A stretch of 36,562 nucleotides of DNA from a virus, in IMG/VR virus record IMGVR_UViG_3300042197_001658, positions 1-36,562 of that record. One strand, written 5' to 3'. Made by a program: the position numbers and the translations under genes. The notes below the pieces were generated by a model. It was not told the origin of the DNA. It did not search any database and worked only from the letters and a program-made list of their open reading frames with translations. Below are positions 5,217-14,969 of the stretch, piece by piece. The first letter of the stretch is position 1, and the number at the start of each line of letters is the position of its first letter.

Positions 5217-5618
5217 ATGACGCAATTAGATTTAGTTAATCATGCACTTATTGGATTCGACAGAATCTTTAATCAATTGGATAATGTTCGCGCTAGTACA
5301 AAAACTTATCCGCCACACAATGTAGTAAAAATTGATGATGACAATTGGCTTGTAGAGTTAGCGGCTGCTGGATTTTCTAGGGACGAGCTAACTGTAGAAC
5401 TTCACGAGAACACATTGACAATCCGCGGTCAAAAAGCGGAGCAAGCAGGTAGACAATACTTGTATAGAGGATTGGCAATGCGTAATTTTGAGAAGAGCTT
5501 ATACATACAAGATCATATTAAAATTAAACATGCAGAATATAAGGACGGCATGCTTAATATTTATTTAGAACAGCGTGTACCTGAGAGTAAAAAACCTAAA
5601 CAAATTACTATTAACTAA
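5217..5618 (+). CDS. small heat shock protein (Hsp20/IbpA family)
   Basis: ATP-independent holdase chaperone that binds unfolding proteins in the cytoplasm. 133 aa. The alpha-crystallin domain spans about residues 34-125: DDNWLVELAAAGFSRDELTVELHENTLTIRGQ, then the loop with YRGLAMRNFEKSLYIQD and the C-terminal DGMLNIYLEQRVPES, followed by a KKPKQITIN tail. The true start is the ATG at 5217 behind GGAG, not the upstream TTG in frame. The start site is held in a ROSE-like hairpin. Hsp20 genes are common in T4-like aquatic phages and may protect folding of virion proteins. Confidence 0.93.
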   Translation: MTQLDLVNHALIGFDRIFNQLDNVRASTKTYPPHNVVKIDDDNWLVELAAAGFSRDELTVELHENTLTIRGQKAEQAGRQYLYRGLAMRNFEKSLYIQDHIKIKHAEYKDGMLNIYLEQRVPESKKPKQITIN

Positions 5619-5622
5619 TCTA

Positions 5623-5643
5623 GGGGGCGCTAGCCCCCTTTTT
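5623..5643 (+). terminator. intrinsic terminator after hsp20
   Basis: GGGGGC (5623-5628), loop GCTA, GCCCCC (5633-5638), then TTTTT. A strong Rho-independent terminator 4 nt after the hsp20 stop. Confidence 0.9.
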
Positions 5644-5649
5644 ACTATT

Positions 5650-6336
5650 ATGCCCAAACACGAAGAATTTACTGAACAACAAGAATTAAATTTATTTTTT
5701 AGCACTAGTGTTCCACCTGCTGGTAGCGCAGAAGCTAAACGATTAGTTGATGAAGCCCCATATCATCCAGGCTATGAAGGTGCAGTTTTTAGTACTAGCG
5801 TATATCAACCACTAGAGGCAACGAGTATTAGTATCGGTTCGGGAGATACTATAACTCTTAATGGCTGGGCAGCTCAGCCTGTGTCAACACTAAACACCGA
5901 CCCTAAACCAGACTACCACAGCACGCCCATTGACTGGACTAAACTTGTAGTTGATGGTAGTGGCACTAGCGGGGGCAATGTTAGTATAACCAGCGAATCT
6001 ACTAAGTCTGGTTCGGCTATGAAGTTTGACGGTGATAAACTGCCTGTTAACTTATTGAGCACAGAAGCACTCTTACAAACAGCAGCAGTGTTAAAATTTG
6101 GTGCAGATAAGTATCATGCACACAACTGGCGAGATGGTTTTGCCTGGTCAAGACCACTAGCCGCAGCCATGAGACATATTATGGCCTACAACGACGGAGA
6201 GGATAAAGATCCTGAAAGTGGCTTAAGCCACCTTGCACATGCAGCTTGCTCAATTATGTTTTTATTAGAATTCGAGAAAACTCATCCCGAATTGGATGAT
6301 CGTTATAAACCAAATGTATCAACAGTTAGTAAATAA
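5650..6336 (+). CDS. MazG/MazZ-like nucleotide pyrophosphohydrolase (DUF5664 type)
   Basis: 228 aa. The C-terminal half (about residues 120-222) matches the dATP/dGTP diphosphohydrolase N-terminal family (DUF5664, which includes MazZ): KFDGDKLPVNLLSTEALLQTAAVLKFGADKY, HNWRDGFAWSRPLAAAMRHI, and GEDKDPESGLSHLAHAACSIMFLLEF. Such all-alpha enzymes cleave dNTPs to dNMP and PPi through Glu/Asp-bound Mg. The N-terminal half is a low-complexity, Ser/Thr/Gly-rich region with repeats of FSTSV. Start at ATG 5650, immediately after the terminator, with no Shine-Dalgarno. Substrate unknown. Confidence 0.75.
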   Translation: MPKHEEFTEQQELNLFFSTSVPPAGSAEAKRLVDEAPYHPGYEGAVFSTSVYQPLEATSISIGSGDTITLNGWAAQPVSTLNTDPKPDYHSTPIDWTKLVVDGSGTSGGNVSITSESTKSGSAMKFDGDKLPVNLLSTEALLQTAAVLKFGADKYHAHNWRDGFAWSRPLAAAMRHIMAYNDGEDKDPESGLSHLAHAACSIMFLLEFEKTHPELDDRYKPNVSTVSK

Positions 6337-6896: not shown

Positions 6897-7091
6897 ATGA
6901 TAAATATAAACATGGGTGGTCAACAGCCACAGGAAATAAACCTAGAACAAATGCACTCACTGCGACAACAACTGTGTCGCTGGTGTGAACATAGAAACCA
7001 AACTATGGACGTGTGTTCTAGACACGAAAAACTTATAACTATTTACAACAAAAAACCTAATAATCACTGTCCTATTGGACGTTGGCACTGA
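6897..7091 (+). CDS. small Cys/His protein upstream of uvsE (64 aa)
   Basis: Begins after the tRNA at ATG 6897 (or ATG 6912, MGGQQPQEINLEQM) and ends with TGA overlapping the uvsE ATG. The C-terminal half has CRWCEH, CSRHEK and HCPIGRWH, a plausible zinc-binding set of Cys and His residues. No clear Shine-Dalgarno. Longer frames starting inside the tRNA were rejected. Function unknown; the overlap suggests coupling to uvsE. Confidence 0.6.
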   Translation: MININMGGQQPQEINLEQMHSLRQQLCRWCEHRNQTMDVCSRHEKLITIYNKKPNNHCPIGRWH

Positions 7092-8101
7092 TGCATACAT
7101 TTGATACAAATATAAAACGTGTAGGCTTTGCCTGCAAAATTCAAATAGAACATGATAAACCAGATAAAAAATTAAATACAACTACTACAACACTTACTTA
7201 TCTTAATCGTCAAACTAAGGATAAAGCGGTGGAGAAGATTTGGACAATTATACATCACAACTGCGAAACATTGAAGCGACAGGTAGAGTGGGTTGGTAGC
7301 CTGCCTAGAGATCAGCGTCAGTTTAGATTGAGCAGTGATTTATTTCCAGCCTACACCCACGAAGATTGGATGTGGTTTTACTTTGAAAGTGACGTAGTAA
7401 AATATCTAGAGACTCACCTAGCTAAAGTAGGTGACATAGCACGAGGCAAAGATGTACGCCTTAGTTTCCACCCAGGACAATTTTGTGTATTGGCTAGTGA
7501 AAATGATGGAATTGTTGACAACAGCATTGTTGAGTTTGAGTATCATACTGACATCGCCCGTTATATGGGCTATGGCAAGCAGTTTCAAGACTTTAAGTGT
7601 AATGTTCATATTGGCGGCAAGCGTGGGCCACAAGGAATTATACAAGCGTGTAATAAACTAAGCCCAGAAGCGCGTAATATATTAACAATCGAAAATGCCG
7701 AATATACCTGGGGTCTAGAGCATAGCTTGGAGCTTGCGCAACACTGTGCACTAGTCCTAGATATACATCACCACTGGATTTACAGCAAGGGAGAGTATAT
7801 TGAACCAGACGACAAACGAATTGCTGTGGTCAAAGATTCGTGGAGAGGTATTAGACCTGTTATACACTATTCAGTATCCAGAGAAGATGTCCTTGTCGAA
7901 CATGCAAGAGATGAACTGCCCGACTACAAACTACTTACAAGCATGGGTTTTACATCAGCTAAATTGCGAGCACATAGTGATTACTACTGGAACGACCGAG
8001 TAAATGAGTGGGCCGCAAATCATAATACTTGGGCAGATATTATGTGTGAGAGTAAGCAGAAAAACCTTGCTAGTAGTAAGTTTGTAAAGAGCTACTTATA
8101 A
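7091..8101 (+). CDS. uvsE: UV DNA damage endonuclease UvsE/UvdE
   Basis: Nicks DNA 5' to UV photoproducts, starting an excision repair route independent of UvrABC. 336 aa, family-typical. A TIM-barrel of the AP endonuclease 2 type: KRVGFACKIQIE at the N-terminus, RLSSDLFPAY (about 80), RLSFHPGQFCVLAS (about 125), NVHIGGKRGP, LTIENAEYTWGL, and DIHHHWIYSKGEYI, supplying the His/Glu/Asp metal ligands. Start is ATG 7091, sharing a base with the previous stop; the TTG three codons upstream is unlikely. Suits a phage exposed to sunlight. Confidence 0.93.
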   Translation: MHTFDTNIKRVGFACKIQIEHDKPDKKLNTTTTTLTYLNRQTKDKAVEKIWTIIHHNCETLKRQVEWVGSLPRDQRQFRLSSDLFPAYTHEDWMWFYFESDVVKYLETHLAKVGDIARGKDVRLSFHPGQFCVLASENDGIVDNSIVEFEYHTDIARYMGYGKQFQDFKCNVHIGGKRGPQGIIQACNKLSPEARNILTIENAEYTWGLEHSLELAQHCALVLDIHHHWIYSKGEYIEPDDKRIAVVKDSWRGIRPVIHYSVSREDVLVEHARDELPDYKLLTSMGFTSAKLRAHSDYYWNDRVNEWAANHNTWADIMCESKQKNLASSKFVKSYL

Positions 8102-8256
8102 TGTATGATATATTGCATAGTATTTTCCGGCACCTACTACATAATATGACTGTAAGTAAAGATCAACTATACACTTTAGTATATACCGATACTAACTGTA
8201 CACCGGAAGAGTTTGATAAGGCATACGGTGAACTATATAAGGCCTATCTAAAGTAG
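8101..8256 (+). CDS. hypothetical protein (51 aa)
   Basis: ATG overlaps the uvsE stop by one base (TAATG). MYDILHSIFRHLLHN..., with a C-terminal EEFDKAYGELYKAYLK helix. A second ATG at residue 16 (MTVSKDQLYTLVYTD) is another start. Short soluble protein, translationally coupled to uvsE. Function unknown. Confidence 0.6.
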   Translation: MYDILHSIFRHLLHNMTVSKDQLYTLVYTDTNCTPEEFDKAYGELYKAYLK

Positions 8257-8266
8257 GCCATATTGT

Positions 8267-8439
8267 GGTGCTCTTTGCTCGTTGCCGAGGCAATGTCGGC
8301 ACATTGCAGAGTCCATTATTAGCGAAGACCGGAGTAGTAGCTAATAGTCGTGTCTGATCCTAAAGTACAGCAAGTCGTCATGAAACTATGTAAGTTTAGG
8401 GCACGGGCTTAGCGGCCTAGGCAGTAAACAAAGAGCACC
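8267..8439 (+). ncRNA. candidate structured RNA of unknown class (about 173 nt)
   Basis: This non-coding stretch is closed by a perfect 11-bp helix: GGTGCTCTTTG (8267-8277) with CAAAGAGCACC (8429-8439). Inside are TATTAGC 8317-8323 with GCTAATA 8340-8346, GTGTC 8350-8354 and CCTAAA 8359-8364 pairing with the region 8395-8404, and a 5' part where GCCGA 8284-8288/TCGGC 8296-8300 and GCAATGT 8290-8296/ACATTGC 8301-8307 compete or form a pseudoknot. No long open frame runs through it. It does not match RNase P, SRP, 6S, tmRNA or group I signatures that I know. It ends 18 nt before the next ATG, so it could be a free RNA or a leader element. Confidence 0.65.
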
Positions 8440-8457
8440 CCAATATGGAGAAATACA

Positions 8458-8772
8458 ATGGATAAATTATACGAACTAGAGTTTTACAATACTCTACTTG
8501 AAGCTATTAATAAAGCCAAAGCTGGAAGTGTAAAGCGAGGAGATAGTGTTAGCTGGTCTAGTAGTGGCGGTACTGCACGCGGTAAGGTTACGCGCATAAT
8601 TACTAGTGGTGAGGCGGACATACCAGGCAGTAGTTTTAAAATTACAGGTACTAAAGAAGATCCAGGTGCACTTATCCGTGTGTATAGACCTGATAGTAGT
8701 GGCAAGTATAAGCCTACAGATACTATTGTAGGACATAAAGTAAGTACACTAACTAAAATAGAGGCACTATAA
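8458..8772 (+). CDS. HVA1/DUF2945-like Tudor-domain protein
   Basis: 104 aa behind ATGGAGAAATACA. The segment from about residue 24, VKRGDSVSWSSSGGTARGKV, through ALIRVYRPDSSGKYKPTDTIVGHKVSTL matches the short 'hypervirulence-associated Tudor' (DUF2945) pattern, a small beta-barrel found in bacteria and phages. An N-terminal helix (residues 1-20) precedes it. Ends in a TAATG overlap with the next gene. The molecular role is not known. Confidence 0.65.
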   Translation: MDKLYELEFYNTLLEAINKAKAGSVKRGDSVSWSSSGGTARGKVTRIITSGEADIPGSSFKITGTKEDPGALIRVYRPDSSGKYKPTDTIVGHKVSTLTKIEAL

Positions 8773-14170: not shown

Positions 14171-14273
14171 TTTTTATAACAGCCAACCATTTACCGTATT
14201 AGAAGCCGTTAGCCTAATATTCGTACTAGGCTATACAGGTTATTACATTTTAGCTGAATTAGCTCAGTGGTAG
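14133..14273 (+). CDS. possible small membrane protein running into tRNA-Thr (46 aa)
   Basis: A frame opened by TTG 14133 inside the previous gene reads ...VLEAVSLIFVLGYTGYYILA, one clear membrane span, and stops within tRNA-Thr. The composition is like a real short membrane protein, but the start is weak and the overlap with the tRNA (21 nt) is a concern. Confidence 0.38.
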   Translation: MKNSANIKRSVVNFYNSQPFTVLEAVSLIFVLGYTGYYILAELAQW

Positions 14274-14327
14274 AGCAACCGCCTTGTAAGCGGTAGGTCA
14301 TCAGTTCGAATCCGATATTCAGCACCA
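14253..14327 (+). tRNA. tRNA-Thr (anticodon UGU)
   Basis: 75 nt. Acceptor GCTGAAT/ATTCAGC, D stem GCTC/GAGC, anticodon stem ACCGC/GCGGT around CTTGTAA (UGU), T loop TTCGAAT (one mismatch in the T stem), encoded CCA. Lies just upstream of the tmRNA acceptor piece. Confidence 0.93.
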
Positions 14328-14335
14328 AGTTATAG

Positions 14336-14395
14336 TTGTATGAAGCTAATAGAAACGTACTGCGGACAGGGGTTCGACTCCCCTCTGGTCCACCA
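14336..14395 (+). ncRNA. ssrA: tmRNA acceptor piece (3' half of a permuted ssrA)
   Basis: Contains the 3' half of a tRNA-like domain: T stem AGGGG (14368-14372), loop TTCGACT, CCCCT (14380-14384), acceptor strand CTGGTCC (14385-14391), discriminator A and CCA. Upstream GTACTGCGGAC matches the usual tmRNA sequence before the T arm. The acceptor strand pairs with GGGCCAG at 14539-14545 (one G-U), not with anything upstream, so the gene is circularly permuted. The exact 5' end of the mature piece is uncertain. Confidence 0.88.
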
Positions 14396-14406
14396 AAAGG
14401 TAACTT

Positions 14407-14565
14407 ATGAAATCAGTAGAAGAATTCATACAAGATCAGTTAAAAAGGATTGATATTGATAGCCAAAGACAGGCTATAATAGATCAAGCTTTTGAAATTA
14501 AGGAGCAAACTCAAAAAATAGCTAAGTTATTTTTTGATGGGCCAGTCACGGTTTCGACGGGGTAA
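14407..14565 (+). CDS. small protein encoded between the two tmRNA pieces (52 aa)
   Basis: ATG 14407 has an AAAAGG site 6 nt upstream that overlaps the CCA end of the tmRNA acceptor piece. MKSVEEFIQDQLKRIDIDSQ..., helical and charged, similar in style to the 9223 and 9630 products; the last 8 codons and the stop lie in the 5' end of the tmRNA coding piece. It would be translated only from unprocessed precursor or another transcript. Intervening segments of permuted tmRNAs are normally short and non-coding. Confidence 0.5.
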   Translation: MKSVEEFIQDQLKRIDIDSQRQAIIDQAFEIKEQTQKIAKLFFDGPVTVSTG

Positions 14566-14725
14566 AGAGTATTGTGGCAGACAACTCGGCAATGCAGAAG
14601 CCGTAGGGTTAGCACTAGCTGGCCATAGAAGCAAATAAGATAAATGCCAACGATGAGGTATTTGCCTTAGCTGCATAAGCTAGGCTGGGGTTTAGGCGGT
14701 TGACCTTATTAGCCAACAACCGCCA
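14539..14725 (+). ncRNA. ssrA: tmRNA coding piece (5' half of a permuted ssrA) with tag reading frame
   Basis: 5' acceptor strand GGGCCAG, then CACGGTTTCGACGGGG, the conserved tmRNA D-loop region, AGUAU (14568-14572) pairing with GUACU of the acceptor piece (P2), and PK1 with CGGC/GCCG. The tag frame starts at GCA 14631 after CATAGAA and encodes ANKINANDEVFALAA, stop 14676-14678; the last ten residues, ANDEVFALAA, look like standard proteolysis tags ending LAA. A GGCGGTTG/CAACCGCC hairpin (14695-14724) closes the piece. With SmpB it would rescue stalled ribosomes. Confidence 0.9.
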
Positions 14726-14750
14726 CCAACAACACAAACAGAGGATAAAA

Positions 14751-14969
14751 ATGGAACTAGAGTTTAAACATGCGGGTATGAGTGTTAGTTTTGAGTGTGA
14801 TGGGGACGATCACTATGATCACGTTGATCTCCTACATAAAATTGCGGCTCTAGTTGAAGAGCTAGCTAGCCATACTGGCGTTAGTCTTATTGTAATGAGC
14901 GATTATGCAGACACTGAAACCAACACAGACGAAGACGAAGACGAAGACGAAGACAAGTGGGCAGACTAG
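14751..14969 (+). CDS. acidic small protein (72 aa)
   Basis: ATG 14751 follows CAGAGGATAAAA, immediately after the tmRNA. An upstream in-frame start would lie within the tmRNA hairpin and is rejected. MELEFKHAGMSVSFECDGDD, then a helix, and a C-terminal run of Asp/Glu encoded by GACGAA repeats (about 14929-14955). Function unknown; DNA-mimic-like acidity is notable but unproven. Confidence 0.68.
   Translation: MELEFKHAGMSVSFECDGDDHYDHVDLLHKIAALVEELASHTGVSLIVMSDYADTETNTDEDEDEDEDKWAD

Follow-up and report, generated by a model that had tools for sequence, protein, structure and literature searches.

A previously undescribed structured RNA of uncultured phages, ~190 nt long, is best explained as a stand-alone, processed molecule whose copies probably associate with one another. 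We characterized it in a 36,562-base virus record (the window, meaning the whole stretch of DNA analysed) that carries ten tRNA genes and a permuted tmRNA. The RNA fills the gap at 8257-8457 between two open reading frames. A sequence-only reading had called this block free of genes, as the frame boundaries bear out, and had named a conserved short protein across it as one observation that would speak against an RNA. None was found: no frame of at least 40 amino acids crosses the block in the window or its close relatives, and the P2 loop has insertions and deletions whose lengths are not divisible by three, so we rejected a coding function. The neighbouring genes and the parts of the RNA are as follows.

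5575-6336: dATP/dGTP diphosphohydrolase-domain protein, near the RNA, as is UvdE
7082-8101: UvdE-type UV endonuclease (Pfam UvdE, E = 9e-40)
ending at 8256: 51-amino-acid frame, 3' of the endonuclease gene
8241-8259, plus strand: P0 hairpin (8241-8246 with 8254-8259), window group only, sharing two nucleotides with the start of P1
8258-8448, plus strand: whole RNA, 191 nt, bounded by the closing helix, which does not define the mature ends
8258-8277, plus strand: 5' strand of closing helix P1, 20 positions, mismatch at 8266
8284-8300, plus strand: P2 hairpin (8284-8288 with 8296-8300); its loop-closing pair is A-U in the window and G-C in relatives
8307-8356, plus strand: P3, with P3a (8307-8310 with 8353-8356) and P3b (8315-8323 with 8340-8348)
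8329-8332, plus strand: CCGG palindrome of the P3 loop, proposed self-kissing site; a six-base palindrome in other groups
8359-8400, plus strand: P4, with P4a (8359-8364 with 8395-8400 and 8366-8369 with 8389-8392) and P4b (8373-8375 with 8385-8387)
8378-8383, plus strand: UCAUGA palindrome of the P4 loop, second proposed self-kissing site
8405-8418, plus strand: P5 hairpin with a CU[UAGC]GG cap, invariant in alignment A3, above a covarying stem
8420-8429, plus strand: almost invariant single strand GGCAGUAAAC, which most relatives have as GGYAGUAARC
8429-8448, plus strand: 3' strand of P1, whose pairing recurs in homologues and covaries
starting at 8458: 104-amino-acid frame (Pfam Hva1_TUDOR, E = 4e-8)

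Many isolate phages encode relatives of UvdE, at less than 60% identity.

The overall architecture is a five-way junction of P1 and arms P2 to P5. The 11-bp terminal helix reported earlier is present at 8267-8277/8429-8439 but is not the full extent of P1: past one U.C mismatch (8266.8440) eight more pairs follow, giving a helix of ~20 bp with 19 of 20 positions paired. The proposed GCCGA/TCGGC helix corresponds to P2, a hairpin with CCG..CGG that is kept through compensatory change. P3 contains an internal loop, and within the window group both sides change at four of the nine P3b pairs. The P4b pairs 8375-8385 and 8374-8386 show two-sided change. The P0 stem varies among relatives as GGCCUA..UAGGCC, AUAGCCUA..UAGGCUAU and AUAAUUUA..UAAAUUAU. 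A second helix overlapping P2, GCAAUGU/ACAUUGC, had been read as a pseudoknot or switch. It is missing from the relatives in alignment A1, and L004, L005, L006, L007 and other close relatives cannot form it; being confined to the window, it leaves the pseudoknot or switch unsupported. The predicted folding energy is -59.8 kcal/mol for 8267-8439 (z = -3.5) and -73.3 kcal/mol for 8250-8470 (z = -4.6). Since plus and minus strands alike fold better than their shuffles, folding alone is silent on the strand; the excess of G-U over A-C cells (98 versus 30) points to plus as the folding one.

We gathered relatives by searching viral contigs with the two neighbouring proteins and then with the motif CTTAGCGG-N-AGTAAACA. 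IMG/VR contigs yielded about 40 distinct homologues: 38 full or nearly full copies and a more distant group (L040, L044, L048, L116 and L126). The ends of P1 pair at 18-20 of 20 positions in every retained homologue, compared with at most 15 in false pattern matches. Close relatives of the window share 84-91% identity; the remaining ones lie beyond full-length blastn. Alignment A3 comprises 25 sequences, excludes the window type and carries a structure drawn manually from folds of individual sequences. In it, 87.8% of cells pair, both sides change in compensation at 38 of 47 pairs (a count inflated by shared ancestry), and the covariation score of 0.679 exceeds the 0.236 of shuffles (reached in 0 of 500) and the 0.07-0.19 of slid controls, whose maximum is 0.185. 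The window group alone shows two-sided change at 12 of 55 pairs, and 0 of 500 shuffles reach its score, these counts being likewise inflated by shared ancestry. The covariance model built from A3 matches the window at 8266-8440 with 97.3 bits (E = 2.3e-21); since no window-group sequence contributed to the model, this is an independent test. The homologue collection and covariation check suggested by the sequence-only reading thus turned up compensatory change well beyond chance, and we confirm that the block is a real, structured phage RNA kept through such change.

The RNA matches no catalogued class. The Rfam scan that had also been suggested (4227 models) returned nothing over the window RNA at gathering score, nor weakly at E up to 5; across the window and its relatives it found only tRNA, tmRNA and one chance match, none over this RNA. 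With the covariation and the independent model match, this upholds the earlier view of a structured RNA of no class that could be named. When we searched isolate phages at the nucleotide level with the window region plus four further representatives, none carried this RNA; the matches were tRNA flanks or short and due to chance. Among the short ones was a 26-nt match in PA5oct that gained no support from the covariance model. In a megablast of the window, phages matched at tRNAs alone. The bacterial genomes searched contained nine pattern matches, none closed by P1. We also ran the model on T4, PA5oct and 35 viral records, nearly all of the latter being relatives in which the stretch examined had shown no copy. 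It found the RNA only in the record of L053, where it was known already, apart from a match at chance level in T4. Occurrence across relatives is patchy. One relative (L010:7055-7105) is missing the core and keeps just an 18-bp P1-like hairpin between the UvdE and 104-amino-acid genes, and L009 is a deletion copy without P3 and part of P4; the RNA is thus dispensable, or in the course of being lost, in some phages. The L040-type group (L040:7286-7461, also L044, L048, L116 and L126) has the CUUAGCGG cap placed on P4, a GNRA tetraloop (GCGA, GUAA or GCAA) capping P5, and CCGGCCGG within its P3 loop. In the open-access literature, most subscription papers being outside reach so that a prior description is possible, we found no description of this RNA.

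Genomic context links the RNA to tRNA genes. Most of the distant copies begin exactly on the CCA of tRNA-Pro(UGG), the first three nucleotides of P1 are the CCA of tRNA-Pro in most tRNA-linked copies, and several copies end at the start of the next tRNA; the window group and the L025/L028 group have no adjoining tRNA. Depending on lineage, the RNA is followed by the 104-amino-acid gene, a 42- or 55-amino-acid frame, tRNA-Ala, tRNA-Leu or tRNA-Ile. The earlier reading had left the choice between a stand-alone RNA, a ribozyme and a leader switch. A cis-regulatory leader or riboswitch would be expected to keep one kind of downstream gene and an alternative helix; we found no such gene kind among the groups and no such helix among the relatives in A1. 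With no constant gene downstream from group to group, neither a leader nor a riboswitch is likely, and the unconserved overlapping helix likewise leaves both unsupported. Different things following the RNA in different lineages favour a stand-alone RNA; a ribozyme is without evidence.

The same observations bear on a local mRNA element, in which P1 would be the functional part, as an RNase III site between the UvdE and 104-amino-acid genes with the start site of the latter beside its 3' strand, for processing or stability or as a leader. The 9 nt from the end of P1 to the start codon suit such an element, as does the hairpin that L010 retains in the same place. Against it, downstream neighbours vary by group, and inner arms with compensatory change and nearly invariant single strands would be superfluous in a plain hairpin. 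We regard this explanation as quite unlikely.

The apical loops of P3 and P4 point to self-association of the stand-alone RNA. Apart from the window group and L009, the deletion copy, every copy has a self-complementary hexamer in its P3 apical loop: CCCGGG, CCUAGG, UCUAGA, UCCGGA, ACUAGU, CUCGAG or CACGUG. By type, seven of eight distinct hexamers are palindromic, which none of 100,000 shuffles matched when the 3' halves were permuted among the eight types; including the most distant group, the figures are eight of nine and 0 of 200,000. The background palindrome rate elsewhere in these RNAs is 1.2%. Members of the window group have a shorter, unvarying P3 palindrome, the 4-nt CCGG within ACCGGA, in a 16-nt loop. 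The P4 loop is palindromic in 34 of 38 copies (UCAUGA, UAAUUA or UCGCGA) and imperfect in four, being broken in L180 and the L016 group; by type this signal is weak (three of five, reached in 5.8% of shuffles).

Columns 71/74 and 169/172, the inner palindrome positions, are among the most strongly covarying pairs outside the structure. Bases this near to one another have little chance of pairing inside a single chain, which makes intermolecular pairing the simplest explanation; OLE L9.3 and GOLLD L21a have been interpreted by this argument (PMC12286853). The P3 loop combines a palindrome with adjacent-nucleotide covariation, as in GOLLD, ROOL and OLE, and its variation reads as the covariation signature of symmetric kissing loops. 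Loops that change yet stay self-complementary suggest pairing between copies of the RNA. Two intramolecular pairings looked possible by eye and were set aside: the P3 loop with a 3' CCUGGG, which is possible in some copies, fails in L021 and the window, and is not among the covarying columns; and a P2-P4 loop-loop pairing that suits some groups and not others.

A monomeric stand-alone RNA whose palindromic loops are bound by a dimeric protein or by another RNA would suit all the structural evidence equally, and we consider it unlikely. The near-fixation of the P4 loop as UCAUGA in many sequences and the shortness of the window's P3 palindrome fit a monomer. At least seven P3 palindrome sequences are hard to reconcile with a sequence-specific partner and easy with self-pairing, and an unrelated RNA family in the same arrays repeats the pattern.

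That second family emerged from a survey of tRNA ends. Among 751 distinct tRNA ends, 79 have a helix with 17 or more of 18 positions paired that starts on or a few bases from the CCA; among 2,253 random anchors, 10 have one. Across all loci, with both strands counted, CCA..TGG helices number 166 against 1-13 for seven other trinucleotides; ACC helices, which overlap the CCA ones, number 86. As these modules were picked for pairing, their P1 pairing is itself no test; the counts against controls are. The enclosed cores are ~90-230 nt long and sort into dozens of groups unrelated to one another. The same core type can occur behind more than one kind of tRNA (Thr and Asp; Thr and Trp; Lys and Gly; Lys and Gln; Pro and Tyr), and a single tRNA, Lys, has several core types. 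Examples with 5' ACCATAT.. and ..ATATGGT 3' ends are L016:9893-10017, L121:2050-2177, L050:7502-7610, L029:8687-8782 and L013:3617-3767. A few modules enclose a tRNA. Behind tRNA-Ser in L184 and L049 a tRNA gene lies inside a long flanking helix, as if the same kind of closing helix carried tRNA cargo; the matching stretch of L011 has tRNA-His. The window's permuted tmRNA, phage-encoded, spans 14253-14769 (tag ANDEVFALAA), overlaps a tRNA-Thr call and contains a long helix from CCA at 14390-14540.

The second RNA family, unrelated to the first and mostly linked to tRNA-Thr (L121:4028-4138, L111:2364-2474, L011:11336-11452, L186:7768-7894, L032:12148-12260, L123:5396-5508 and L095:8031-8139), has an apical loop of CGUACG, CUCGAG, ACCGGU, UCCGGA or CUGCAG. 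Five of six loop types are palindromic, matched by two in 200,000 shuffles. The remaining modules hold 81 palindromes against 75 expected; without enrichment over all of them, we rejected palindromes as a general feature of CCA modules and take them as a trait of some cores only.

Modules with unrelated cores also raise the possibility of a MITE- or REP-like mobile element, its ends forming inverted repeats, that inserts at the 3' ends of tRNAs and whose hairpin acts as DNA. The same type of ends (CCATAT../..ATATGG) around unrelated cores, and one core type behind different tRNAs, are compatible with mobility. Yet terminal repeats of one family should match in sequence, whereas these ends keep their pairing although the inner sequence changes; the internal arms covary; and L010, with both P1 arms and no core, is unlike an excision. 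The G-U excess suits an RNA of tRNA sense, though a folded single DNA strand would give it too. We consider a mobile element highly improbable. A broader reading that we hold tentatively, as a possibility somewhat short of probable, is an undescribed set of modules in which a ~20-bp helix on the tRNA CCA carries exchangeable cores; at least two families, the present one and the tRNA-Thr-linked one, would form homodimers through fast-changing self-complementary kissing loops, keeping the RNA of each phage with its own kind.

The RNA is not a member of the GOLLD, ROOL or OLE families, whose models, within Rfam, match neither the window nor its relatives; if the dimer is real, it is akin to them in working. 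GOLLD and ROOL likewise come from phages or prophages, frequently lie close to tRNA islands and have no known function. They are RNA-only homo-oligomers with symmetric kissing loops and covariation-backed intermolecular contacts (PMC12286853), whereas oligomerization of the present RNA is inferred. It also differs from them in size (~190 nt, against more than 800 nt for many GOLLD RNAs), in matching neither covariance model and in a closing helix that overlaps the tRNA CCA. OLE, an RNA-only dimer, shares the palindrome switching, its symmetric L9.3 loop alternating among GGCC, GAUC and AGCU (PMC12286853), and differs in carriers, size and fold. T4 rnaC and rnaD (species 1 and 2) are small stable RNAs of unknown role that likewise lie directly 3' of a phage tRNA gene; their folds lack a closing helix on the CCA, and we rejected homology because the model's sole T4 match is at chance level and elsewhere. 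Natural RNAs also include the HIV-1 dimerization initiation site in the viral genomic RNA leader and the phi29 pRNA of the packaging motor. Both self-associate loop to loop (PMC12286853, in part), and we found no homology to either.

The account we favour, a processed and self-associating RNA, builds on what the sequences show: a conserved fold on the plus strand, linkage to tRNA genes, palindromes that change, and no kind of downstream gene kept between lineages. The ~190-nt structured RNA would be encoded by a single lineage of uncultured tailed phages and excised from a longer transcript: in most of the distant relatives a tRNA array, with P1 starting on the tRNA-Pro CCA, and in the window an mRNA between the UvdE-type endonuclease and 104-amino-acid genes. 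P1 is long enough for RNase III, and tRNA enzymes may cut the flanks. Two or more molecules would then pair through symmetric kissing loops, chiefly P3 and in most groups P4 too. The resulting small RNA-only homodimer or oligomer would be comparable to OLE, GOLLD and ROOL, and its role during infection may be that of a scaffold or binding platform. The sequence-only interpretation as a whole is partly supported; the extended helix, the tRNA linkage and the palindromic loops were beyond its reach.

Natural RNAs whose sequences give evidence of self-association are very few; this compact phage RNA joins them and, at ~190 nt, is an easier object of study than ROOL or GOLLD. Because its palindromes change while self-pairing is kept, the dimer hypothesis is directly testable by loop swaps. 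The finding also suggests that phage tRNA arrays hold a layer not reported before, RNA modules closed by a helix on CCA ends, which may account for some of the unexplained spacers of long phage tRNA arrays.
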